From Parabacteroides sp. (GTDB lineage Bacteria; Bacteroidota; Bacteroidia; Bacteroidales; Tannerellaceae), in assembly GCA_017481945.1 (NCBI GenBank), contig JAFUOJ010000014.1, positions 62,001-126,000 on the forward strand: a stretch of DNA of 64,000 bases, read 5' to 3'. The stretch's first letter is position 1. The number at the start of each line of letters is the position of its first letter. The notes below the pieces were generated by a model, which had not been told where the DNA came from, searched no databases, and worked only from the letters and a program-made list of their open reading frames with translations. The translations under genes and the position numbers were made by a program. Shown piece by piece: positions 1-11,266 of this stretch.

Positions 1-646
1 AATTACATTGAGCTGTTTCATCTCCTTGTTCCGCTGCAAGTTTATACCATTTTACTGCTTCATTATAATCTTGTTTAACTCCTTCTCCATAATAATAACA
101 TTCCCCTAAATTATATTGAGCTGTTTCATTTCCTTGCTCCGCTGCAAGTTTATACCATTTTACTGCTTCATAGTAATCTTGTTTAATACCTTTACCATAA
201 TAATAACAGTATCCTAGATAATATTCTCCTTCTTTATTACCTTGATTAGCTAATTTAAAAAGAGTGTTAATGTCTGTGTTTTTATTAATAGAATCTATGT
301 TTTTAGTATCCCCATTCTTTTCTAATAATAAAAGTCCTTCAATGAAGCTTTGGGTTATTTGTTGTCCAAATTCTTCTGACCAAAAGTTATTTTCTGCGAT
401 TTGTTTGCTTAATTGATTACAAAATGCAGCTCGTTCAGAAAAGGGTTTTAGCGAAATTTCATGGATTCTCAAAGAGATAGAATCTTCCATGATTACTCGG
501 CGATACACTCGTTTTAATTTTTCTTCACCGGTATAAAGATCGGCGATAAAGTTATATAACCGTTGTTTATCTGTATAAAGTTCTTTCCCATATTCAAGAA
601 CTAAATCTCTTAACAGTTGATCAATAGATGAGTTTTTGTTAATCAT
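1..646 (-). CDS. Sel1-repeat (TPR-like) protein, C-terminus beyond the window
   Basis: The frame opens at ATG 646-644 and runs off the left edge after 215 codons, so the C-terminus is missing. Residues 1-125 form a helical, non-repetitive head with no family I recognise. From about residue 139 there are Sel1-like repeats of 36 residues with the motif YYYGxGxKQDYxEAVKWYKLAAEQG. Sel1 repeats are alpha/alpha scaffolds for protein-protein contacts. No signal peptide is visible, so it is probably cytoplasmic. Its ATG overlaps the TGA of the upstream PP2C gene (ATGA), which implies translational coupling and a role as scaffold or output of the kinase/vWA/PP2C system. The start is well supported; the partner or substrate is unknown. 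Confidence 0.85.
   Translation of the reverse strand, partial: MINKNSSIDQLLRDLVLEYGKELYTDKQRLYNFIADLYTGEEKLKRVYRRVIMEDSISLRIHEISLKPFSERAAFCNQLSKQIAENNFWSEEFGQQITQSFIEGLLLLEKNGDTKNIDSINKNTDINTLFKLANQGNKEGEYYLGYCYYYGKGIKQDYYEAVKWYKLAAEQGNETAQYNLGECYYYGEGVKQDYNEAVKWYKLAAEQGDETAQCN
8..223. repeat. 108-bp tandem repeat encoding Sel1 units
   Basis: Two adjacent copies with a period of exactly 108 bp (8-115 and 116-223) differ at only a small number of positions. They encode consecutive 36-residue Sel1 units, and the first copy may continue past the window edge. High nucleotide identity points to recent unit duplication, so copy number could vary between strains. Confidence 0.8.
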
Positions 647-1539
647 ACCTTATTATATATAATACCTGCTACTGAAATATCATCACCACTTCCTTTTTCA
701 GAGAGAATCGGTAAAAAGTTTTCTATCTCTTGTTTCGCTAGTTTTTCATCTTTTTCCTGAAATGTTTGTAATACTTCCTGATAGAAATCATATAGATCTT
801 TATCATTGGCAAAGCTATCATCGACACCATCAGTACCCATAAAAATGGCGCGAGGAAAATGATTCTCATGTAGGCAATAACGGAATTTGTCGATTGCATT
901 CCCATCGCAAAGCGAGGTAGTTACATTCAAAAAACAAGCGTCATCCCAAGGAATGGGTTGGTTAAATGTCCCATCTTCGTAAGCTGCAACGCATTTCCCA
1001 TCTCCAATTTGCAATCCGAACCAAAAGTAACCGGGGTAAACAACTGACGCGATTAAGGTCGTTCCGTATGCTTTTATATAGGATTCTTCCGGATTTGTCT
1101 CATATTTCTTTCGAAACTTTTCGTCCATCAAAAGAAGTTCTTCTGAGGTAAAAGGTCTGTTTCGATAATCTTCGGCGATTTGCTTTTGCCAACCCACAAT
1201 AATACTCTGGGCCAACTGACGCATAAATTGGTCCTTATTGATGAACATTTTTTCGCGTAAGGATTTTGAAGCATTCGGTTTTAAAAAGTTTCCCATGAAC
1301 TCTTTTATTACCTTTATTGTAACTTCTGTTGCTATTTGGGAACCTTGATTGCTCCGAAAATAGTTATTTCCTCCATGTCCATCACAAACAATTGCTATCG
1401 CATATTTCTCTTTATAAGAAGAACCGGAGGCGTCTTGGCAAACTTGGTTTACCTTTTTATGAGACGCCCCAAGGTGAGAACTATGGAAAGCATATAGCTC
1501 TTTACGGTGTTTTTTAAAAGAAATCATCATCAACATCAT
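643..1539 (-). CDS. PP2C-family protein serine/threonine phosphatase
   Basis: A 298-residue protein with PP2C metal-binding motifs: VCDGHGG near residues 51-57, a central GTTLIASVV strand with IGDGKCVA, GTDGVDDSF around residue 231, and GDDISVAGI near the C-terminus. PP2C enzymes use two Mn/Mg ions to remove phosphate from Ser/Thr. The start is ambiguous: Met1, 2, 4 and 5 all lie within 15 nt and inside the 3' end of the upstream vWA gene, giving a 14-26 nt overlap; the Met5 start (1527) is equally plausible. It is third in the kinase-vWA-PP2C-Sel1 operon and probably reverses phosphorylation by the adjacent kinase. No signal peptide or membrane segment is seen. Confidence 0.9.
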   Translation of the reverse strand: MMLMMISFKKHRKELYAFHSSHLGASHKKVNQVCQDASGSSYKEKYAIAIVCDGHGGNNYFRSNQGSQIATEVTIKVIKEFMGNFLKPNASKSLREKMFINKDQFMRQLAQSIIVGWQKQIAEDYRNRPFTSEELLLMDEKFRKKYETNPEESYIKAYGTTLIASVVYPGYFWFGLQIGDGKCVAAYEDGTFNQPIPWDDACFLNVTTSLCDGNAIDKFRYCLHENHFPRAIFMGTDGVDDSFANDKDLYDFYQEVLQTFQEKDEKLAKQEIENFLPILSEKGSGDDISVAGIIYNKV

Positions 1540-2221
1540 CCATATTTTGTGTATTTACATAACTCGTTATTCCATTGATCACAGTATCTGTTTTGGTTCC
1601 ATCTGTCACACCGCTGCTTTTACTATTGACTTGTGAAGAGGTCACACTGACAAATTTGATGATTGCCTTCAAAGCTGATTTATTATGTACTTCAATAACA
1701 GCTTCGCTGTTTCCGGTAAACTCACTTAATACATTTTTATCCGCGTCGTTTCCTATGGCAATTGCAATTTTGATTGCATATTTAAACCAGTTGTTTTTTT
1801 TGATGTTTTCTAATCCATCTTTGTAATTATCTGTAGGCCCCCCGTCGGATAGTAAAATAATTACCGGAGCATACGAACCGGCTGCTTCTTGAAGAAATTG
1901 CTCTTTTGACAACTTGCTGTTCAGTTCATTTAAAGCTTCTCCTAAATTAGTTAGTCCTCCAACTTTTAAATCATTCCAAACAAAATCTTCGGATTCTATA
2001 GGTTGTGGATATAACCAATGAACATTTGTGTCAAATTGTAAAGTGGCAATTTTAATTGCTGCGTCAGGATTATTAGCAGAAAGATCTTTCAAATCAGGAA
2101 CTGTTTCCCGAATGGCGTCATTCAAAGAACCAATTTTAGTTCCTGACATACTGCCGGAAGTATCTACTAAGAAAAATAAAACCATCGTTTTACGGGCAAT
2201 TTTTACTCTCTCTGTATTCAT
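1514..2221 (-). CDS. vWA-domain protein, TerY-like
   Basis: A 235-residue protein that is nearly all one von Willebrand A domain. The MIDAS motif DTSGSMSG (Asp20, Ser22, Ser24) follows the hydrophobic strand MVLFFLV, and a second metal-site loop, LLSDGGPTDN, lies near residues 122-131. vWA domains bind a divalent cation and mediate protein contacts. In the TerY-P triad described for tellurite/stress-type conflict systems, a vWA protein is encoded with a protein kinase and a PP2C phosphatase, the order seen here. The C-terminus ends in an acidic tail (MDDVDDDFF). It starts 21 bp after the kinase stop and overlaps the PP2C start. Cytoplasmic; its ligand is unknown. Confidence 0.88.
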   Translation of the reverse strand: MNTERVKIARKTMVLFFLVDTSGSMSGTKIGSLNDAIRETVPDLKDLSANNPDAAIKIATLQFDTNVHWLYPQPIESEDFVWNDLKVGGLTNLGEALNELNSKLSKEQFLQEAAGSYAPVIILLSDGGPTDNYKDGLENIKKNNWFKYAIKIAIAIGNDADKNVLSEFTGNSEAVIEVHNKSALKAIIKFVSVTSSQVNSKSSGVTDGTKTDTVINGITSYVNTQNMDDVDDDFF

Positions 2222-2242
2222 TGTATTATGTAATTTATAGTG

Positions 2243-3535
2243 TTAAACAATTTTTGCTGAACTACCATTTCCGAAAGCAATCTCGTTGCCAATCAACAGA
2301 GGTACCACTTCTCCCGGTGCGATTGGACGATTGTTTTTATTTTTGGTCGTTAACATCCACACGTTTTGTGTTAAGTTTTTTAGTCCGAATAGTCCGGGCG
2401 CTTTTTTACTTTCGACAATTTCCCCTGTACAGACATAGAGCTTTTGTTTGCTACTGTCTGTAATATATTGATAAATCTTTTTGTCCCGATTTACCGCAAC
2501 TTTGTATTTACCGGCTTGAATAATAGGTACACGCAGATCAACGTGAAAAGAACAATCACTGCAACGGAAATCATTTTTCTCTGTATCTAAGAAAATCTCA
2601 TTGCCACAAGATGGACATTTTACCAATTCGTGACGCATACGAAGTAGGATATTTTCTATCCATTCTTTTTCAGAAATTCTTCTTCCCGGTTCTTGCAATA
2701 CCTTTTGACTAAATTGATTAATAAATATGTCGCGTACATATTGAGGAAATTCCGGCCAAAGATGAATCACATTTGTATGGATTCCGCGGACGGGACGATT
2801 GCTATTATCTGTGGGATCATAGATAAATAGGGGAGAGAATCCATAGAATTTTTTCTCATGTTTTTCAGTCATGCAAGGACAATTGCTGATTAATTCTCCT
2901 TCTAATGGATGATTATTAAAGAATAATAAAAAGAGGATAATCGCTAAAGAAAACCGGTCGGATTGTGGGTTTGGCATTGTTTCTCCCCTTACAACTTCAG
3001 GAGCCATATAGCGACATTTCCCTAAAATCCCCATATTCTCGTCTGCCGAGGAGACATTGTCATTGTCACAAATCAGAATATCACCCGTAGATGGATTAAT
3101 GAAAAAATTACCATCATTCAAATCTTGATAACTATATCCTTTCCCATGTAGCTTCTGAAAACCGGCACATATTTTTATACCAGCTTCAATCATAGCAGAA
3201 ACCGTACTGAATTGTACTTTAGCTAATAGGAAATCGCTAAATTCTTTATAGGCTGAATCGCGTAATTCCATTAAATAACCAAAACAGCCGTTTGAGTCTT
3301 TTTCCGTCAAAAACAAAGGCCATAAGAAAAAAGGAGCAGGAGAACCTTTTTCGATATTTTGTTTTAAGTTTTTATAGAACTTCTCTTCTCCCGGTTTATG
3401 GTACCATTTTAAGGCATATTCTTTGTCGTTATAACTGACTTTGTAGACAGTTCCTTGTCCACCACTACCTAATTCAGAAAGAACTTTAGCTTCTCCTCCT
3501 GTCGATATTTTTATTAGATCCCCCTTCTTAAACAT
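2243..3535 (-). CDS. Ser/Thr protein kinase with C-terminal zinc ribbon (TerY-P-type kinase)
   Basis: A 430-residue protein. The kinase domain spans about residues 8-300: glycine loop GSGGQG (23-28), ATP-anchoring Lys43 in ALKW, catalytic YQDLNDGNFF with Asp138 in place of HRD, and an MAPE segment at 177-180. The metal-binding DFG is replaced by DND (Asp157). A four-cysteine zinc ribbon follows (Cys307, 310, 325, 328), then a small beta-rich tail to 430. It is the first gene of the kinase-vWA-PP2C-Sel1 operon. The family is clear; the substrate is not. No transmembrane or sensor domain is present, so the input must come from a partner such as the vWA protein. No clean -7 box was found upstream. 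Confidence 0.9.
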   Translation of the reverse strand: MFKKGDLIKISTGGEAKVLSELGSGGQGTVYKVSYNDKEYALKWYHKPGEEKFYKNLKQNIEKGSPAPFFLWPLFLTEKDSNGCFGYLMELRDSAYKEFSDFLLAKVQFSTVSAMIEAGIKICAGFQKLHGKGYSYQDLNDGNFFINPSTGDILICDNDNVSSADENMGILGKCRYMAPEVVRGETMPNPQSDRFSLAIILFLLFFNNHPLEGELISNCPCMTEKHEKKFYGFSPLFIYDPTDNSNRPVRGIHTNVIHLWPEFPQYVRDIFINQFSQKVLQEPGRRISEKEWIENILLRMRHELVKCPSCGNEIFLDTEKNDFRCSDCSFHVDLRVPIIQAGKYKVAVNRDKKIYQYITDSSKQKLYVCTGEIVESKKAPGLFGLKNLTQNVWMLTTKNKNNRPIAPGEVVPLLIGNEIAFGNGSSAKIV

Positions 3536-3585
3536 AACGTTCTGTATATTATAATAGCTGAAAACTAAGTTGATTAAACAAAGAA

Positions 3586-3661
3586 AGGCGTGATAACCGC
3601 CTTGTCAGATTTCACAGGTATCGCCAAACACCCACCACCGCAAACAAGGAAGCTCACGCCT
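3586..3661 (-). repeat. Structured hairpin element, copy A
   Basis: Read on the minus strand, an 8-bp outer stem AGGCGTGA/TCACGCCT encloses a second stem CCTTGT/ACAAGG and a 38-nt apical region carrying TTGCGGTGGT and TTTGGCGATACCTGTGAA. The 3' side runs into TTCTTTG, like a weak terminator tract. Copies B and C have similar size and apical motif but different stem sequences that still pair. Function unknown: a small RNA, a terminator-like RNA or a REP-like mobile palindrome are all possible. Confidence 0.55.
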
Positions 3662-3685
3662 ATATATGCATATATACAAAACATG

Positions 3686-3762
3686 AGCGTCAACTTATCT
3701 CTCTTGCGGTAGTTTCTTAAAATTGGCGATTTCGTGAAAAACTACAAGTATAAGCTTACGCT
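3686..3762 (+). repeat. Structured hairpin element, copy B
   Basis: On the plus strand, AGCGT/ACGCT and CTTAT/ATAAG stems separated by CAA/CTT internal loops enclose a GTAGTTT/AAACTAC stem. The apical region contains TTGGCGATTTCGTGAA at 3723-3738. A T-run follows the 3' arm. Its 77-bp length matches copy A, which lies 24 bp away in the opposite orientation. Confidence 0.55.
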
Positions 3763-3890
3763 TTTTCTAATATGTTATTATGTCTTTCTTCTTCTTTATT
3801 TTGTCATTCGCAATTTCTTTTTCTTGTTTTCGCAAAAATAGCAATCACTTTTGGGATTATCAATCTTTGGGGAGATTTTATTTTGATAAA

Positions 3891-3971
3891 CCGTCCGCCT
3901 CGTTGTTATCCTGTAGCGGAGTTCTTTTTGGGTTGGCGATTTCGTGAATCCGGAATAAGGTGAGGCGGCGG
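3891..3971 (+). repeat. Structured hairpin element, copy C
   Basis: On the plus strand, CCG-t-CCGCCTC pairs with GAGGCGG-CGG (one bulge), then TTAT-CC pairs with GG-a-ATAA, then CGGA with TCCG. The apical TTGGCGATTTCGTGAA (3933-3948) is identical to copy B. No T-run follows, so this copy is less terminator-like. The stem sequences differ completely from copies A and B. Confidence 0.5.
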
Positions 3972-4088
3972 CTGTATCATTGGGTAGTAACAACTTCTTG
4001 ATAAGTCTAAAATGTTGCCAAATGTATGGATTTTGTTTTAAATCGAGGTCGCTTATTGTCAAGAATCTTTCGTGTGTTTGATTATCGT

Positions 4089-4096
4089 TATGTTTG
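4089..4096 (+). promoter_or_regulatory. Candidate -7 box (TATGTTTG) for the HU-HIG gene
   Basis: A perfect match to the Bacteroidetes TAnnTTTG element. It lies about 400 nt before the HU-HIG start and 45 nt before the palindrome array, so the array would be in the transcribed leader. No convincing -33 element is present. Confidence 0.4.
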
Positions 4097-4141
4097 AGGG
4101 GGGAAATGACTTGGGTTTGAGGGGGTGAAAAGTATCGGTGA

Positions 4142-4229
4142 AAAAAGTTTAGACATTTTCTCAAAAAAGTCCGGACTTTTTGCGGAAAAAGTTTAGACTT
4201 TCTTCTGAAAAAGTCTAGACTTTTTTTGA
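4142..4229. repeat. Four-unit 22-bp palindrome array upstream of the HU-HIG gene
   Basis: Units start at 4142, 4164, 4186 and 4208, exactly 22 bp apart. Two are perfect 18-bp palindromes: AAAAAGTCCGGACTTTTT (4164-4181) and AAAAAGTCTAGACTTTTT (4208-4225). The other two are near-palindromes with a TTTAGA centre. Spacing of about two helical turns puts all centres on nearly the same DNA face, as expected for cooperative operator sites. The binder is unknown; the HU-HIG protein itself is a candidate. Confidence 0.75.
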
Positions 4230-4493
4230 GGGTGATTTTTTCTCTTGTTTTGAAAATATTTAATTCTCTCGCTTTTTTGTCTTGCTGGATTTGAGGATTA
4301 TTTATTGTCAAATGAAAATTAAATGAGAGCAAATCAAAAATGGTGATTTTATTAAATATTTCCAAATGTTTGATTGGACCAAGAAATTTATATCCGTTTT
4401 AGGCGCTGTGGTTTAGACTTCCTAATTTTATTGTGTAACCGAAAGGGAATGACTCCGAATAGGTTACTATTGTTAATTAAAATTTTTTTTAAC

Positions 4494-4943
4494 ATGGCAC
4501 TTAAGTATAAGTTGGTCCAACGTCCGGACATGACAAAGGACGCAAAGGAAGGAGCTAAGAAATATTATGGTAGTATTTCGGCTACGGGTATGTTAACATT
4601 AGAACAACTTTGTTCGAGTATTTCTGCGTATAGCACAGCTTCGCAGGGAGATGTTAAATTAGTGTTGGATGGAATGGTTTATATTGCTTCGGAGGCATTG
4701 CTGAGAGGTGAGATCGTTCAGTTAGGCGATTTAGGCCATTTCCAGTTGAAAATGAGTAGTGAATCGGTGGATAATTCGTCTGATTTTAAAGCTTCAATGT
4801 TTTATAATCCGCGTATTACCTTCCGTCCGAGCACTCGTTTGAAGAAAGCGATTGCGGATGTGAGCGTAGAAAAGTGGCCGGTAATAACGGTCACAGACAG
4901 CTCTTCGTCCGGCAACACCGATGAGGCTCCGGAGGAATTATAA
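4494..4943 (+). CDS. HU-HIG family DNA-binding protein
   Basis: A 149-residue protein starting MALKYKLVQRPDM, a typical opening for the Bacteroidales HU-HIG branch of the HU/IHF fold. The HU core is visible as a helical N-terminal half (LTLEQLCSSISAYSTASQGDVKLVLDGMVYIASEAL) followed by a beta section (GEIVQLGDLGHFQLKM) and FYNPRITFRPSTRLKKAI. The open frame extends upstream to 4374, but the start at 4494 matches the family and the upstream codons are not HU-like. The tail is Ser/acidic-rich. Related proteins are nucleoid-associated or local regulators; the specific role here is unknown. It is preceded by the palindrome array and followed by a strong terminator. Confidence 0.88.
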   Translation: MALKYKLVQRPDMTKDAKEGAKKYYGSISATGMLTLEQLCSSISAYSTASQGDVKLVLDGMVYIASEALLRGEIVQLGDLGHFQLKMSSESVDNSSDFKASMFYNPRITFRPSTRLKKAIADVSVEKWPVITVTDSSSSGNTDEAPEEL

Positions 4944-4969
4944 CCCTTCTACTCATTTAAAAACAAAAG

Positions 4970-5002
4970 AACGGTCGGGCTTCCGAAGGGAACCCGACCG
5001 TT
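4970..5002 (+). terminator. Rho-independent terminator after the HU-HIG gene
   Basis: Arms AACGGTCGGG and CCCGACCGTT form a 10-bp stem, followed by a T-rich GGTGTTTTATTT tract. It is nearly identical to the hairpin at 6884-6916 on the other side of the nuclease/PRTase cassette. Confidence 0.85.
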
Positions 5003-5057
5003 GGTGTTTTATTTAGGAAAATTTTTAGAACAAACTGTTTTTTTAGATTAGAATTAC

Positions 5058-5065
5058 TACTTTTA
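5058..5065 (+). promoter_or_regulatory. Near-consensus -7 box (TACTTTTA) before the DUF1653 gene
   Basis: Matches TAnnTTTG at all fixed positions but the last. It sits 18 bp before the ATG of the first gene of the nuclease/PRTase cassette and directly after the upstream terminator, so some promoter must lie here. Confidence 0.35.
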
Positions 5066-5082
5066 CAAATTGAAATGAGGTC

Positions 5083-5334
5083 ATGAATAAAGAACGATAT
5101 TTTGTACATTTTAAGGGCGGCTTATATAAAATGATAGGTATAGCTTATCATAGTGAAACACATGAAGAAATGGTTGTTTATCAGGCTTTGTATGGTGATT
5201 CCAAAATATGGGTTCGTCCTAAAACAATGTTTTTTGAGAAAGTTCTGTTTAATGGCACTCAAGTAAATCGTTTTAAAGAAATAACCAAAATTGAAATGTT
5301 ATGCCTATTAGCACAGAGGAAAGAAACTATTTGA
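5083..5334 (+). CDS. DUF1653 family protein
   Basis: An 83-residue cytoplasmic protein with the DUF1653 signature: YFVHFKGGLYKMIGIAYHS near the N-terminus, then VVYQALYGDSKIWVRPKTMFFE, then RFKEI. These small SH3-like proteins are widespread, often fused to or encoded beside nucleotide or RNA-modifying enzymes, and have no agreed function. The last 34 nt overlap the start of the next gene in another frame, so the two are likely translationally coupled. It is the first of three genes in a compact A+T-rich cassette. Its link to the downstream nuclease is positional only. Confidence 0.85.
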   Translation: MNKERYFVHFKGGLYKMIGIAYHSETHEEMVVYQALYGDSKIWVRPKTMFFEKVLFNGTQVNRFKEITKIEMLCLLAQRKETI

Positions 5335-6143
5335 AGAACAAACATAGAGGAGGTTTGAATAATAGTAAAGGGGCTGTTTATGAAAATTTTTATGCGACTT
5401 ATCAAATCGCTTTGTTGATGAATCAATACTTATCTCAACTGAATGAGATTTATTTGACTTCTCAAATGGAAGAGGTATTTGTAGATGATTTATTAATAAG
5501 AAATCTGGATACTCTGTTAATTTATCATCAAATAAAAGATGTAAAAGGATTAACTTGGGCGTATGGAGAATCTCATTCTTTACTATTTGATTTTACGAGA
5601 CAAAAGGAAATATCTACGGAGGAGAATGAAAGATTTTGTTTAAAGTTGGTATTTTCAGATCTAAAAAGTTCTGTATGTAAAATCCCAACAGAGATAGAGG
5701 AATGTACTATTGTTGAGTATTTCCCTGCTTGTACAAGTATAAACGAATTGATTTTATCTCATTCTTCTTTCAAAAATGCAATACAGAATATAGCAATACA
5801 GGAAGAAGTTGAAGATGATGAATTGTCAGGAATTGCTTCAGCTATTTTAGGTGCATGGTGTTCTGTTAGACAAAAAAATATATCTTTACAGCAGATTTTG
5901 GATATTACTTATTCAAAGGGTAAAGGTTTTATAAATATAAAAACATATCCAACAATCAAAATTTCAGAGGTATGTAAAGATATTCTAACTCGATTTGAAC
6001 TGTCTTTTTATACAAATGGTTTTACTCTATATTGGTCTTATCATAGACTGAAAGGAGAGACTATTTGGACAAAAGAATTAGAGTTTAAGTTAGAAAATGC
6101 TGATATTTCGAATATTTGGGATTTAATGGAGATACTAAGCTAA
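5301..6143 (+). CDS. Putative PD-(D/E)xK dsDNA nuclease, Cap4/DUF4297-like
   Basis: A 280-residue protein. The N-terminal 90 residues resemble the nuclease domain of Cap4/DUF4297 proteins: a Gly-rich opening (RGGLNN, 16-21), a helix ENFYATYQIALLM, then EEVFVDDLLI with Asp62/Asp63 and, after one strand, IYHQIKDV with the QxK motif (Gln77, Lys79). In this superfamily the acidic residue and the QxK lysine coordinate metal and cleave DNA. The remaining ~190 residues are helical and unassigned, and I see no SAVED or other known sensor domain. It overlaps DUF1653 by 34 nt and is followed after 10 bp by the PRTase-like gene. The family assignment is a motif-level inference. Confidence 0.6.
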   Translation: MPISTEERNYLKNKHRGGLNNSKGAVYENFYATYQIALLMNQYLSQLNEIYLTSQMEEVFVDDLLIRNLDTLLIYHQIKDVKGLTWAYGESHSLLFDFTRQKEISTEENERFCLKLVFSDLKSSVCKIPTEIEECTIVEYFPACTSINELILSHSSFKNAIQNIAIQEEVEDDELSGIASAILGAWCSVRQKNISLQQILDITYSKGKGFINIKTYPTIKISEVCKDILTRFELSFYTNGFTLYWSYHRLKGETIWTKELEFKLENADISNIWDLMEILS

Positions 6144-6153
6144 ATAAGTGAGT

Positions 6154-6831
6154 ATGAGAAAGTATATAAACTTAACAACTGAAAATGATTCAACTGTTAA
6201 ACGTTTAATGGAGGTTTTGTCTTCTTCTACGACTTCAGTTGATGAGTATCGTAATGCTTTTTATCAAATAGGAGTAGCTTTAGGTAATTTACTCAACCAA
6301 AAGGTTCGGCATGGATATGGAAAAACCATGTTGGCTTGTGCTGCAGAAGATGTGGATTGGTTAGTGAAAGGTGTTTTAGAGTCTATATCTCAAAAGGAAA
6401 TAGCCTTGGCTGTATTTTGGCATGGTAGAATTACATTAGATGAGGAAATGAAGTTAGAGTATAGTCCTATTCTTAAATCCTATGTGGAACCAATAGATAA
6501 TTGTCAAACGCTTATTTTGGTTAAATCGATTATAAGTACATCTTGTGTTGTAAAAACACAATTAACACGGTTGGTAAATAAAATTAATCCATCAACCATT
6601 TATATATTATCTCCGGTTTTGTATAAGGACGCGGAAAGTAATTTGCAACGAGAGTTTCCAAAACGAATTTATGATAAATTTAAATTTTTGACATTTGCTA
6701 TTGATTCAGAAAGGGATGAACAAGGGGCTGTTCTGCCGGGAATTGGTGGTATGGTGTATCCAAAATTAGGATTGGGTGATAGTCAAGAGAAAAATAAGTA
6801 TATACCTAATTTAGTTAAAGAAAGGATTTGA
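6154..6831 (+). CDS. Uracil-phosphoribosyltransferase-like protein with degenerate PRPP loop
   Basis: About 225 residues. The C-terminal two thirds follow the UPRT layout: FWHGRITLDEEMKLEYSPIL (compare GLYRDEETLxPVEYY), a strand CQTLILV, a PRPP-type loop KSIISTSCV where UPRTs have DPMLATGGT, IYILSPV, FAIDSERDEQG, and GAVLPGIGGMVYPKLG matching the uracil-site GYIVPGLGDAGDRLFG. The acidic residue and TGG of the PRPP loop are missing, so ordinary transferase activity is doubtful. A GTG at 6148 in frame could also start it; I chose the ATG at 6154. It lies 10 bp after the nuclease gene. A role as sensor or effector is inferred from context. Confidence 0.65.
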   Translation: MRKYINLTTENDSTVKRLMEVLSSSTTSVDEYRNAFYQIGVALGNLLNQKVRHGYGKTMLACAAEDVDWLVKGVLESISQKEIALAVFWHGRITLDEEMKLEYSPILKSYVEPIDNCQTLILVKSIISTSCVVKTQLTRLVNKINPSTIYILSPVLYKDAESNLQREFPKRIYDKFKFLTFAIDSERDEQGAVLPGIGGMVYPKLGLGDSQEKNKYIPNLVKERI

Positions 6832-6883
6832 TCCTTTTTCCTTGTTATGAATAGGTTGGTAATAATGTGTAAGTAAAATAAAA

Positions 6884-6916
6884 AACGGTCGGGATCCCGA
6901 AGGAATCTCGACCGTT
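6884..6916. terminator. Terminator between the PRTase-like gene and glgP
   Basis: Stem AACGGTCG/CGACCGTT plus further pairs across GGA/TCT. On the minus strand it is followed by TTTTTATTTT, so it mainly ends glgP transcripts and may also end the cassette on the plus strand. It matches the hairpin at 4970-5002 at 28 of 33 positions. Confidence 0.85.
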
Positions 6917-6939
6917 GTATTTAGGTTGTATTTGTTCAA

Positions 6940-9510
6940 TTATAATTGAATCCAACGAACGTATGCGAAGTCCATACGGTGAGGTAATTCGCTGTTTACT
7001 GGGTAAACACGGAATCCCATCTTGTGAAGACCCGGATAACTTGGTGTTCTCTTCAATTCAAAGAATAATTTAGAACCTTCTTCTTTAACCAGCTTGAACT
7101 GTTCTACAGATACAAGTTCCAAATTATGTTTTTCAGGATTTTCAGATGTAATCACCAATTCAACGCCTAACATACCTTGCAATTCTTTGCGGTCGATCAC
7201 AATATTAAAGATGTTTTCTTGACCAACTACTGGACCGTCGATTGACAAGTCTTTGTTGCAAGTGAATGATTCTACCTGGAAGTTATCCCAATGTTCAGCA
7301 ACTTCTTCTTTCCATGCTGCAATAGATTTAGCTGTAGCATAGTTGTTTTCTGCCAAATGAGCAGAACGAGTTGCCAACTTGTTGTAGAAACGTTCGATGT
7401 AATCATCCAACATACGTTTCATAGTATAGTCAGGTGCGATCTGAGACATTGAATTCTTGATGTATTGAATCCACTCAGGTGAGTATCCTTTACTATTCTT
7501 TGCGTAGTAAGTTGGAATGATTTCGTTTTCTAATGTATTGTAGATAGTAGCGGCATCTAATTGATCTTGATACTGCTGATTGTCGTAAGTACGCTTTTCA
7601 GTTAATGCCCATCCAGCACCAGGTTTATAACCTTCATACCACCATCCGTCCAATACAGAATAGTTTAGTACACCGTTCATTTCAGCTTTTTCACCAGATG
7701 TACCGGAAGCTTCCAATGGACGTGTCGGAGTATTCAACCAAACATCAACACCAGCAATCAAATGACGAGCCAAGCGCATGTCGTAGTTTTCCAAGAAAAT
7801 AATCTTTCCTAAGAATTCAGGACGACGTGAAATTTCAACGATATGCTTGATTAAGCCCTGACCACCACCGTCAGCTGGGTGAGCTTTTCCTGTGAATACG
7901 AATTGAATTGGATATTGTTCGTTGTTAACGATCTTAGCCAAACGGTCTAAGTCAGTGAACAACAAGTGTGCACGTTTGTAAGTTGCGAAACGACGACCGA
8001 AACCAATCATCAAAGCATTCGGATTGATCTTGTCTAAGATAGAAACAACCTTAGCAGGATCACCCTGGTTCTTCAACCAGTTTGCTTTATATTGATTCTT
8101 GATATAAGCAATTAATTTGTTCTTTAAAGTCTTGCGAATTGCCCAGATATCTTCGTCTGCAATGTTCTGAATAGCTTCCCAAAGTGTCTTGTTAGACTGA
8201 TCTTTGAAGAATTTTTCGCTAAAGTTTTCAGCAAAGAAACGTTTCCATTCAGTTGAAGCCCATGTCGGCATGTGTACACCATTAGTAACATATCCTACAT
8301 GTAATTCATCAGGGAAGTAGCCTTTCCATACCGGAGCGAACATACGTTGAGATACTTTTCCGTGCAACCAGCTAACACCATTTGCTTCTTGACAAGTGTT
8401 CAAAGCGAATACACTCATAGAGAACTTTTCGTTTGAACCCGGGTTTTCACGTCCCATGTCAATGAATTCTTGCCAGCTAATACCTAACTTGCCAGGGAAT
8501 TCACCCATGTAACGACCGAACAAACCTTCGTCGAAGTAGTCGTGACCAGCAGGAACCGGAGTGTGAACTGTATAAAGTGCAGAAGCACGTACAACTTCTA
8601 ATGCTTGGTTAAATGTCAAACCATCATTCTGGATATAATCAACCAAACGTTGTGCATTGATTAATGCAGCGTGTCCTTCGTTGCAGTGATAGATCTGTTT
8701 CTTAATGCCTAATTTGTTCAACATTAAGATACCACCGATACCTAACAAGTATTCTTGTTTCATACGGTTTTCCCAATCACCACCGTATAATTGGTGAGTG
8801 ATAGAACGATCCCATTCGCTGTTCTGAGGGATATCAGTATCCATTAAATATAAAGGAACACGACCTACGTTTACTTTCCACACGTAGGCATAAACTGTAC
8901 GACCTGGATAAGGAACTTCTAATACCATTGGTTCGCCGTTTTCTTCCATAACCTGTACAAGAGGAAGAGCGTTGAAGTTCTGAGGTTCGTAGTTTGCAAT
9001 CTGCTGTCCATCCATAGACAGAGACTGAGTGAAGTAACCGTAACGGTATAAGAAACCAACTGCGGTTAAGTCGATGTTACTATCACTTGCTTCTTTCAAG
9101 TAGTCACCAGCTAATACACCAAGACCACCAGAATAGATTTTCAAAACGTTAGTTAAACCATATTCCATACTGAAATAAGCAACAGATGGTTTTGTAGCGT
9201 CAGGTTTAACGTTTACGTAATCTTTAAATAATGAGTAAACAGCTTTGATTTCGGCCATCAAGGCTTTGTCAGCCAAGATTTCTTCAATACGCTTAATCGT
9301 TAAGCTTTGAAGTAAAAGAACTGGGTTCCCTTCTGTAGAGGCCCAAAGTTCAGGGTCAATTTTACCGAATAATTTGGCACCTTCGTGATTCCATACCCAC
9401 CATAAGTTTGTAGCCATTTCATATAATGGCTGCAACTGTTCTGGTAACATTGAGCGAGAATACACATCTTTCCAAATTGGACTGTTCGCGTTATTCGCTT
9501 TAATTTTCAT
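6940..9510 (-). CDS. glgP: Alpha-glucan (glycogen) phosphorylase, GT35, DUF3417-type
   Basis: An 856-residue cytoplasmic enzyme that releases glucose-1-phosphate from glycogen or maltodextrin ends. The N-terminal ~110 residues are the DUF3417 cap ([18 protein letters not shown]), followed by the GT35 core: [38 protein letters not shown] and, near residue 607, the PLP-binding segment [14 protein letters not shown], where the lysine forms the Schiff base. The length fits the short bacterial alpha-glucan phosphorylase class rather than the E. coli MalP/GlgP class. It lies 100 bp downstream of the glycogen synthase gene on the same strand and has its own consensus -7 box. Together the pair builds and mobilises storage glycogen. 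Confidence 0.96.
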
Positions 9511-9610: not shown

Positions 9611-11266
9611 TTAATTATTTCTTTTGTTTGCGTTTCCTAAAGCGATTCGGAAAGCCTCTTCATAATACACTATAAATTTGCTCCATTCTGCTTCTGTCGC
9701 CAGTTCTGAACAACGTTTCCGAATGTTTTTAGTTTCCTTGTTATCTTTACTAACAAGAGTTAAAATTGCATTTGTTATTGCGTCTGCTACTTCAAAATAA
9801 TTAAAATCATCTCGATTTATAACAGCAACACCTTCGCAAATGTCATTTCCTGTTACATGTTTTTTTGCCCATAAACCGAAACCGGCTAAATTAGTTGTTA
9901 CGGTTGGGATTCCAAAGGCAATACTTTCCAACGGTGTATATCCCCAAGGTTCATAGTAGGAAGGATAAACAGTTGCGTCCATGCCAATTAATAAATCATA
10001 ATAAGGTTTGTTTAGAATACCATCATGACCATCTTGATAACATGGAATGAAAATGATTTTTAATTTCTCATTTGCCGCATTGGTAAACCCTGCATGTGCA
10101 ATGTAGTTCAATACTTTATCTTGCTCCATCTGATTTAACCAATGAGTAATAAATGGCATTTGAAGTGGGGCTGTTGTTTTAATATCCTTTGTGATAACCT
10201 CTTTTAGGTCTGCGCGTGAAGCATGTACCCAAGCTGGAACCATGATGAAAGCAACAACTTCACGTTGTAACTTTCCTGAAGTACGTATGCGGTTCATTGC
10301 TTCAATAAACACGTCTATCCCTTTGTTTCGATATTCATAACGTCCACTGGTAGACACTAAAAATGCATCAGATGAAATAGGACATCCTAACAACTTCTCG
10401 GCCATATTAAGCAATGCTTTACGAGCCTCTTTTTGTTTCTTTGTATATTCTTGTTTTGCAGGAACGAAGTTTGGTTCAAAACCGTTTGGAGTTACGATGT
10501 CAGGAGCTTTATCTAATAGTTGCTCACATTCATGTGCTGTGATGTCACTAACTGTGGTAAAACAGTCTACATAATGCGCAGTCTGTTTTTCCAAAGAATG
10601 TTTAGCCTCCATATTTAACTCTCTTGCCATTTGGTCTCCATTATAACCATCCATATAGGCATATAATGCTTTATTGTTTCCTGCAATGGAACGACCTATA
10701 GAGGTTGCATGAGTTGTAAATAAAGTTGCAATCGCTGGGATCTGCTTCTGTATATAAAGAGCCCCCATGCCTAACATCCATTCATTGAATAATGCGGCAA
10801 CTTTTTTGCTCTCAAGTTTGTAAAAGTGATAAAAGCTTTCAATGACTTTCCCTACAGCATAAGCAAAGATACAGGATTCATCGTAATCTCCGTATGCGTG
10901 CATTGAATCTACTTGAAAGCTATCCCACATGGAATAGAAAAAGGAATCTCTTTCTTTAAAGTATTGTTTAAAATCAACTAATATTACAGGCGGAGTTCCC
11001 GGCACGTTCCACCGACCTATCTTTATCTGTAAATTATCGGTCGTCTCTGCATAGATTTTCCAGTCTGTAAATAACTTGCTGTCTTCAATAAAGTCAGGTG
11101 CATTCTTTTCGCCCCAAACATCCGGTCCGATAAAGATTAAGTTATCTTTAAAAGACTGTACTAATGTGTGTGCCTTTGTTGAAAGAACGGTATAAATACC
11201 TCCGACTTTATTACATACTTCCCAACTGCTCTCGAAAAGATATTCCGGCGTTGTTGTATTGTCCAT
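9611..11266 (-). CDS. Glycogen synthase, GT3 family
   Basis: A 551-residue GT3-type (eukaryote-like) synthase rather than GT5 GlgA. The N-terminus has FESSWEVCNKVGGIYTVL, the GT3 sugar-nucleotide site motif; EWMLGMGALY and FTTHATSIGRSIAG follow, and the C-terminal half has STSGRYEYRNKGIDVFIEA and YPSYYEPWGYTPLES with the paired glutamates typical of retaining GT-B enzymes. It extends alpha-1,4-glucan from nucleotide-glucose; the donor cannot be read from the sequence. Cytoplasmic. It has a consensus -7 box and lies directly upstream of the phosphorylase gene. Confidence 0.92.
   Translation of the reverse strand: MDNTTTPEYLFESSWEVCNKVGGIYTVLSTKAHTLVQSFKDNLIFIGPDVWGEKNAPDFIEDSKLFTDWKIYAETTDNLQIKIGRWNVPGTPPVILVDFKQYFKERDSFFYSMWDSFQVDSMHAYGDYDESCIFAYAVGKVIESFYHFYKLESKKVAALFNEWMLGMGALYIQKQIPAIATLFTTHATSIGRSIAGNNKALYAYMDGYNGDQMARELNMEAKHSLEKQTAHYVDCFTTVSDITAHECEQLLDKAPDIVTPNGFEPNFVPAKQEYTKKQKEARKALLNMAEKLLGCPISSDAFLVSTSGRYEYRNKGIDVFIEAMNRIRTSGKLQREVVAFIMVPAWVHASRADLKEVITKDIKTTAPLQMPFITHWLNQMEQDKVLNYIAHAGFTNAANEKLKIIFIPCYQDGHDGILNKPYYDLLIGMDATVYPSYYEPWGYTPLESIAFGIPTVTTNLAGFGLWAKKHVTGNDICEGVAVINRDDFNYFEVADAITNAILTLVSKDNKETKNIRKRCSELATEAEWSKFIVYYEEAFRIALGNANKRNN

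Follow-up and report, generated by a model that had tools for sequence, protein, structure and literature searches.

A recurrent gene cassette of Bacteroidota and cyanobacterial plasmids pairs a predicted Cap4-clade nuclease with a protein of uracil phosphoribosyltransferase fold

We present here a compact gene cassette found in a 64,000-nt stretch of Parabacteroides sp. (contig JAFUOJ010000014.1; hereafter the window, within which all coordinates are counted), comprising a DUF1653 gene, a gene for a predicted nuclease (P1), and a gene for a protein of uracil phosphoribosyltransferase (UPRT) fold (PRT). Our best explanation, to which we give about even odds, is a mobile two- or three-gene cassette in which P1 would be a Cap4-clade DNase effector under the control of a UPRT-derived PRT; its role would be phage defense or plasmid addiction. 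The data behind it are gene linkage, predicted folds, the conservation and loss of motifs, and a patchy spread over two phyla, and from them we infer nuclease activity, contact between PRT and P1, a ligand, restraint, and a role in defense. An interpretation of this kind had been proposed from the letters of the DNA (the original prediction) and is partly supported overall.

The genes recur together. Peptide patterns from a three-sequence PRT alignment were used to scan one genome per species across 84,980 species, with one of two PRT patterns required (residues 61-68 and 132-139; K126 lies outside both), and this returned 26 loci besides the window, all titled Bacteroidota at some rank. Intact P1 lies directly upstream of PRT in 22 of them; in the other four, P1 is broken by a run of N (L033), lacks its nuclease part (L041), or is absent (L029 and L031). 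Plasmid protein searches found the pair on two cyanobacterial plasmids, Geminocystis pGM3709_06 (10,375 bp) and the 319-kb Chroococcidiopsis pA, which is typed as conjugative; identities are 37-43% for PRT and 32-34% for P1. A plasmid search at the DNA level returned nothing. The gap between P1 and PRT ranges from -4 to +15 nt (23 loci). The original prediction had expected conserved pairing and had named separate occurrence of the homologues as grounds for abandoning it; they are found together, in Bacteroidota and on both plasmids.

DUF1653 lies just upstream of P1 or its remnant at 21 of the 26 evaluable Bacteroidota loci, window counted (L039, where the contig begins there, was left out of the 27), and in 18 loci its overlap with P1 measures 11 to 62 nt, with starts as called. 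It is missing at L026, L029, L031, L047, and L048, and neither cyanobacterial plasmid has it just upstream of the pair. Because DUF1653 was found in only 4 of 149 same-order genomes, in two of these within the cassette, its repeated linkage goes beyond chance expectation. The inclusion of DUF1653 in the cassette by the original prediction holds for most loci but not for all: it is a frequent, nonobligatory member. A solitary DUF1653 gene with no adjoining P1 or PRT was also seen (L126, 1474-1689); its neighbor reads by eye like pheS.

The cassette is rare, with P1 in 4 of 98 related genomes (the window's own included, one match being a fragment) and in 2 of 393 same-order genomes (own included); strong PRT matches fall in the same 2 of the 393. 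Pairwise distances of P1 and PRT correlate with r = 0.95 over 23 loci, and those among P1, PRT, and DUF1653 with r = 0.93 to 0.95, each with 0 of 2,000 permutations as high; the correlation arises partly from common descent. The ratio of nonsynonymous to synonymous substitution rates (dN/dS) was 0.07 to 0.28 in 20 of 21 comparisons (the remaining one was not computable, and dS is near or above saturation in some pairs involving the window), which indicates purifying selection on DUF1653, P1, and PRT. Since adjacency is kept in distant genomes and dN/dS lies in this range, the genes are not a chance grouping.

The predicted fold of P1 (VIA) is of the Cap4/LmuA nuclease type. About 65 to 70 amino acids lie beyond the nuclease match, and the C-terminal 65 or so residues are barely covered by the fold comparison. 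The motif VDDLLI...YHQIKDV is among the best-conserved stretches of P1: D62, D63, and K79 are present in all 23 homologues and Q77 in 22, and all four residues are present in 9/9 sequences of a cross-phylum alignment, forming a D...(E/Q)xK motif. In PMC10732053, Cap4 D50 and AbpA D45 occupy the motif corresponding to P1 D62-D63, and Cap4 E67/K69 and AbpA Q58/K60 are the counterparts of Q77/K79. Searches at the sequence level gave less: no match to P1 among Pfam, NCBIfam, and PADLOC models; PF14130 in 1 of the 23 homologues (E = 0.048) and not in the window P1; a single chance-level match (E = 0.43) for a P1 profile against sequences of solved structures; and one match, below the cut-off, for Cap4_nuclease in 149 same-order genomes. 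Geminocystis P1 (L081, 7685-8605) has a weak match to a PADLOC type I methyltransferase model (E = 1.3e-4). As part of the whole explanation, we assign P1 with moderate confidence as a single-domain Cap4-clade PD-(D/E)xK DNase, which would be expected to cleave DNA. The Cap4-like assignment had been suggested from the motif, with absence of the fold as a second ground for abandoning it; the fold is predicted and the motif conserved.

PRT matches PF14681 UPRTase weakly (E = 1.2e-4; 22 bits, under the cut-off of 27). In a structure search, the top 14 matches are all UPRTs (11 so titled, one titled Fur1p, and two titled by locus name), in agreement with the UPRT-like, phosphoribosyltransferase (PRTase)-fold protein expected at the outset. 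Lower in the lists are the PRTase-fold regulators PurR, with guanosine tetraphosphate (ppGpp), and PyrR, with guanosine monophosphate (GMP), and the best-matching Sulfolobus structure is bound to GTP. Archaeal UPRTs are regulated by nucleotides.

The active-site motifs have been rewritten. Relative to a canonical UPRT, DP is replaced by KS and LRAG by an acidic segment, the PGLGDAGD loop is replaced, and a 16-residue segment is missing; PRT has neither an acidic phosphoribosyl pyrophosphate (PRPP)-binding loop nor a uracil-binding GDAGD loop. Lysine stands in place of the PRPP-loop aspartate in both plasmid PRTs and in 26 of the 27 from Bacteroidota, L033 having glutamate there, and the plasmid homologues also have in common with PRT the R-to-E change in the LRAG region and the loss of the GDAGD loop. 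Because that aspartate is lysine, PRPP, which the original prediction had named as a ligand that PRT might sense, is an unlikely one; a nucleotide or other ligand is possible. As a control, 41 weaker UPRT-like loci of the same order were examined (a narrower motif filter had passed 3 of 14 UPRT loci, and the check was repeated with the 41): PGxGD is present in 41, a DPMxATG-type motif in 32 (nine lack it by pattern), and LRA in 32. Six UPRT-like proteins of other Bacteroidales (L054, L057, L067, L070, L078, and L079) keep PGxGD and lack the DPMxATG-type and LRA motifs by simple patterns; they are possibly further UPRT-derived variants.

All 27 Bacteroidota PRTs carry C64, E67, D68, D70, W91, R94, S127, and C133, and 26 carry K126. 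Across positions 126 to 137, 9 of 12 residues are invariant in a nine-sequence, two-phylum alignment. The residues held across the Bacteroidota PRTs suggest a functional pocket and not a decayed enzyme, and Cap4 is, according to PMC10732053, a nucleotide-signal receptor; both would suit a PRT that is an active enzyme with altered chemistry, making or removing a nucleotide-like signal for P1, as a cGAS/DncV-like nucleotidyltransferase (CD-NTase) does for Cap4. The lysine in place of the PRPP-loop acid, the loss of the uracil-loop acids, and the little space that P1 leaves beyond its nuclease match for a signal-reading domain make this quite unlikely. Ordinary uracil salvage by PRT was rejected on motif loss and patchy occurrence. 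A housekeeping reading, with a pyrimidine-salvage gene lying beside an unrelated neighbor, could appeal to the UPRT fold and to the window's own genome, which has no UPRT above the Pfam family cut-off (the assembly is 83% complete, and a gap may explain this), but it is already contradicted by the rarity and patchiness of strong PRT matches among the same-order genomes, the missing active-site motifs, and a linkage to P1 that spans phyla, and we find it scarcely credible.

At three loci the nuclease is missing and PRT is retained. L031 and L036 both come from genomes titled Bacteroides caecigallinarum; relative to L036, L031 lacks a stretch reaching from shortly before DUF1653 nearly to the end of P1 and keeps 67 bp upstream (94% identical) and the PRT block (93%), with PRT intact and its dN/dS against L036 0.21. 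In L041, P1 is without the N-terminal part that carries the nuclease in L043 and L044, and PRT dN/dS against these two is about 0.08. L029 has PRT without P1, adjoining what by eye is a tRNA pseudouridine synthase-like gene. L033 was considered as a frameshifted P1 and rejected; the N run within the gene is an assembly gap, and the locus is excluded from the loss count. This pattern is what a costly nuclease and a harmless or protective PRT would be expected to leave.

The persistence of PRT where the nuclease is gone would also fit the strongest rival, a plain toxin-antitoxin or plasmid-addiction module in which P1 is the toxin and PRT a plain antitoxin without ligand sensing, kept since its loss kills the cell or cures the plasmid. 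So would the compact two-gene order, with a 4-nt overlap of P1 and PRT on both cyanobacterial plasmids and at L046 and L049, and the position of the pair on the 10.4-kb Geminocystis plasmid, where a single small gene separates it from the replication gene upstream. However, the invariance of 9 of 12 positions in a former active-site loop across two phyla exceeds what a simple antitoxin would need, a third gene is usual in Bacteroidota, and the data on PRT persistence come from PRT-seeded loci; we judge such a module unlikely.

We return to the preferred explanation, a Cap4-clade nuclease controlled by a UPRT-derived protein. PRT would have lost its PRPP-binding motif while keeping a remodeled pocket, which is strongly conserved. 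In the resting cell, PRT would bind P1 and keep it inactive or block its assembly; phage infection or another invasion would bring about a small-ligand change in the PRT pocket (most simply, one might guess, of a nucleotide or nucleobase), whereupon P1 would be released or assembled and DNA cut. DUF1653 would be an accessory; in most copies from Bacteroidota its gene overlaps that of P1. A precedent for restraint is HamB, which is reported to keep the HamA nuclease in check until damage to DNA is detected. More tentatively, and with some doubt, we propose that a UPRT fold has come to serve as an immune sensor, whose pocket reads a phage-made change in the nucleotide pool or in nucleobases and gates a Cap4-type DNase, in an arrangement common to gut Bacteroidales and cyanobacterial plasmids.

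Between glgP and the gene on its left side, an island of about 11 kb contains the window copy. The island holds SGNH hydrolase-like, RES-like (below cut-off), and Sel1/Prim-Pol genes, a PP2C-vWA-kinase row that we take to be a TerY-P-like triad, an HU-type gene, and the cassette. The row of PP2C, vWA, and Ser/Thr kinase genes, together with the Sel1/Prim-Pol and weakly RES-like genes that share the island, is located at window positions 643-3535 and L122 9333-12647. Seven regions beyond the glgP 3' end in relatives were compared, with genes named by eye, and DUF1653, P1, PRT, and the HU-type, kinase, vWA, PP2C, RES-like, and Sel1/Prim-Pol genes had no match in them. In two relatives (G021 and G013), glgP faces, across a short spacer, a gene with 36-46% identity to the window's left-of-island gene, and then come queF, DUF1080, and dnaX, as in the window genome. 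G016 has only the glgP-facing gene in common with the window genome, at an identity within the same range; G036 and G014 have queF, DUF1080, and dnaX in common, with another gene or insertion-sequence-like genes beside glgP; and the glgP regions of G032 and G022 differ from the window arrangement. The glgP-facing gene of G036 encodes a different protein and, used as a query, had no match in the window's own genome. Neighborhoods vary by locus, and the window copy sits in an island absent at the same site in relatives; with middling confidence and as part of the whole explanation, we take the cassette to be mobile.

On Chroococcidiopsis pA, the pair has a DrmMI/type IIG-like methylase gene on one side (three small genes intervening) and a DruE-like helicase gene on the other. 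Further up there is a DpdE/DrmD-like helicase, and genes annotated as ThiF, Mov34/MPN, and PD-(D/E)XK nuclease lie across the record start (L082 and L083). These surroundings form a composite defense-type island. Defense-type families also occur near 6 of the 26 Bacteroidota loci: McrBC-like (L024), PDC-M60A (L030), methylases (L041 and L044), PDC-S51 (L043), and a YhcG nuclease (L045). The methylase and McrBC-like genes near L024, L041, L044, and the Chroococcidiopsis plasmid copies would fit a nuclease cassette that is restriction-like or self-contained, with PRT or DUF1653 recognizing DNA or a DNA modification. Yet no methylase-like gene holds a fixed position beside the cassette among the neighborhoods listed, and the best PRT matches are enzymes, not DNA-binding proteins, so that we regard this as very unlikely. 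In Parabacteroides distasonis An897 (L038/L022), two kinase-like proteins that carry leucine-rich-type repeats come after the cassette, and at a greater distance there is a vWA protein whose N-terminal part looks DarT-like (all by eye).

Several points weigh against control of a defensive nuclease by PRT. The asymmetry in nuclease loss is biased, since the loci were found with PRT and the reverse case is under-sampled; P1-seeded searches (98 + 393 genomes) gave five P1 loci, of which one, a fragment, lies in a genome without a PRT match. The conservation of PRT is in part built in by the two peptide patterns of the scan. No cassette copy was found in viral contigs, and phage records, searched for P1, have none. 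The neighbor genes scanned for defense-type families, 10 in one set and 8 in an overlapping one, were chosen by eye and without a control, and with PADLOC at 1e-8, 4 of 10 chosen neighbor proteins were matched and 6 unmatched. Housekeeping or surface-protein genes seem by eye to surround several loci (L026, L034, and L048).

The three open reading frames of the original prediction are present where it placed them (Table 1), overlapping or closely spaced and A+T-rich as described, with a GC content of 31.0% over 5083-6831 against a window mean of 38.0%. Among 64 bins of 1 kb, 5001-6000 is the lowest (29.3%), and 6001-7000 (33.0%) is unremarkable. The DUF1653 gene (Pfam PF07866; E = 1.4e-26) stops 34 nt past the P1 start. 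Because homologues begin with MR, the ATG at 6154 is a likelier start for PRT than the listed GTG. Two similar terminator-like palindromes flank the cassette; their pattern (2 or fewer mismatches) has three matches in the window, the third and weaker one at 9900-9918, and none in shuffled sequence. The flanking palindromes were not seen in the glgP spacers of five relatives, and they may be marks of how the cassette was inserted.

Table 1. Positions of cassette features in the window
Feature	Position	Strand	Size or basis
Terminator-like palindrome 5' of cassette, resembling the 3' one	4971..5001	+	31 bp
DUF1653 gene, first cassette gene, optional member	5083..5334	+	83 aa
P1, predicted-fold Cap4-clade PD-(D/E)xK nuclease	5301..6143	+	280 aa; fold match at about residues 16-218
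P1 codon E28, invariant acidic residue of second helix	5382..5384	+	Alignments
P1 codons D62-D63, candidate metal-binding aspartates	5484..5489	+	Alignments; Cap4/AbpA comparison
P1 codons Q77-x-K79, part of (E/Q)xK motif	5529..5537	+	Alignments; Cap4/AbpA comparison
PRT, UPRT-fold protein with rewritten active-site motifs	6148..6831	+	227 aa from GTG
PRT codons 126-137 (KSIISTSCVVKT), counterpart of canonical UPRT DPMLATGGS; acidic PRPP-loop residue replaced by lysine	6523..6558	+	Alignments
Terminator-like palindrome 3' of cassette	6885..6915	+	31 bp

The closest known systems were compared by scanning seven window genes (643-6831). Cap4, an effector of the cyclic-oligonucleotide-based antiphage signaling system (CBASS), joins a PF14130 nuclease to SAVED, whereas P1 has 280 aa with no SAVED recognized and has a UPRT-fold partner, not a CD-NTase; no CD-NTase or SAVED-bearing effector was matched among the seven genes in Pfam, PADLOC, or NCBIfam. 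Lamassu LmuA differs in that no SMC-like LmuB was matched among these genes. Hachiman HamAB, AbpAB, and HerA-DUF4297 are also among the closest systems; the scanned genes include no SMC, helicase, or HerA, and the constant neighbor of P1 is instead a UPRT-fold protein. The PRTase of type III-A retrons is, like PRT, a PRTase-fold protein in a defense setting, and its PADLOC model (PRTase_III-A) matches PRT weakly (E = 0.0039). According to PMC12548924, the PRTase of type III retrons is accompanied by a reverse transcriptase and by a DNA-binding protein, neither of which was matched in the seven genes; multicopy single-stranded DNA (msDNA) was not searched for. A PRTase, which may or may not resemble PRT, is named in a figure legend of validated systems in PMC13092281, and PRTases are mentioned in conflict settings in PMC5512222 and PMC7824862.

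The original prediction knew of no described system with this pair; PADLOC has no model for it, and literature searches gave no description among the matches listed. The parts are of known kinds, and the P1-PRT partnership is new as far as the searches reach. If the explanation is true, an enzyme of nucleotide metabolism has become a regulator of DNA cutting, and the conserved, noncanonical pocket of PRT makes the question of its ligand directly testable. Known partners of Cap4-clade nucleases are SAVED receptors, SMC proteins, helicases, STAND proteins, and HerA; a partner derived from a salvage enzyme would, if true, add another way of controlling them.
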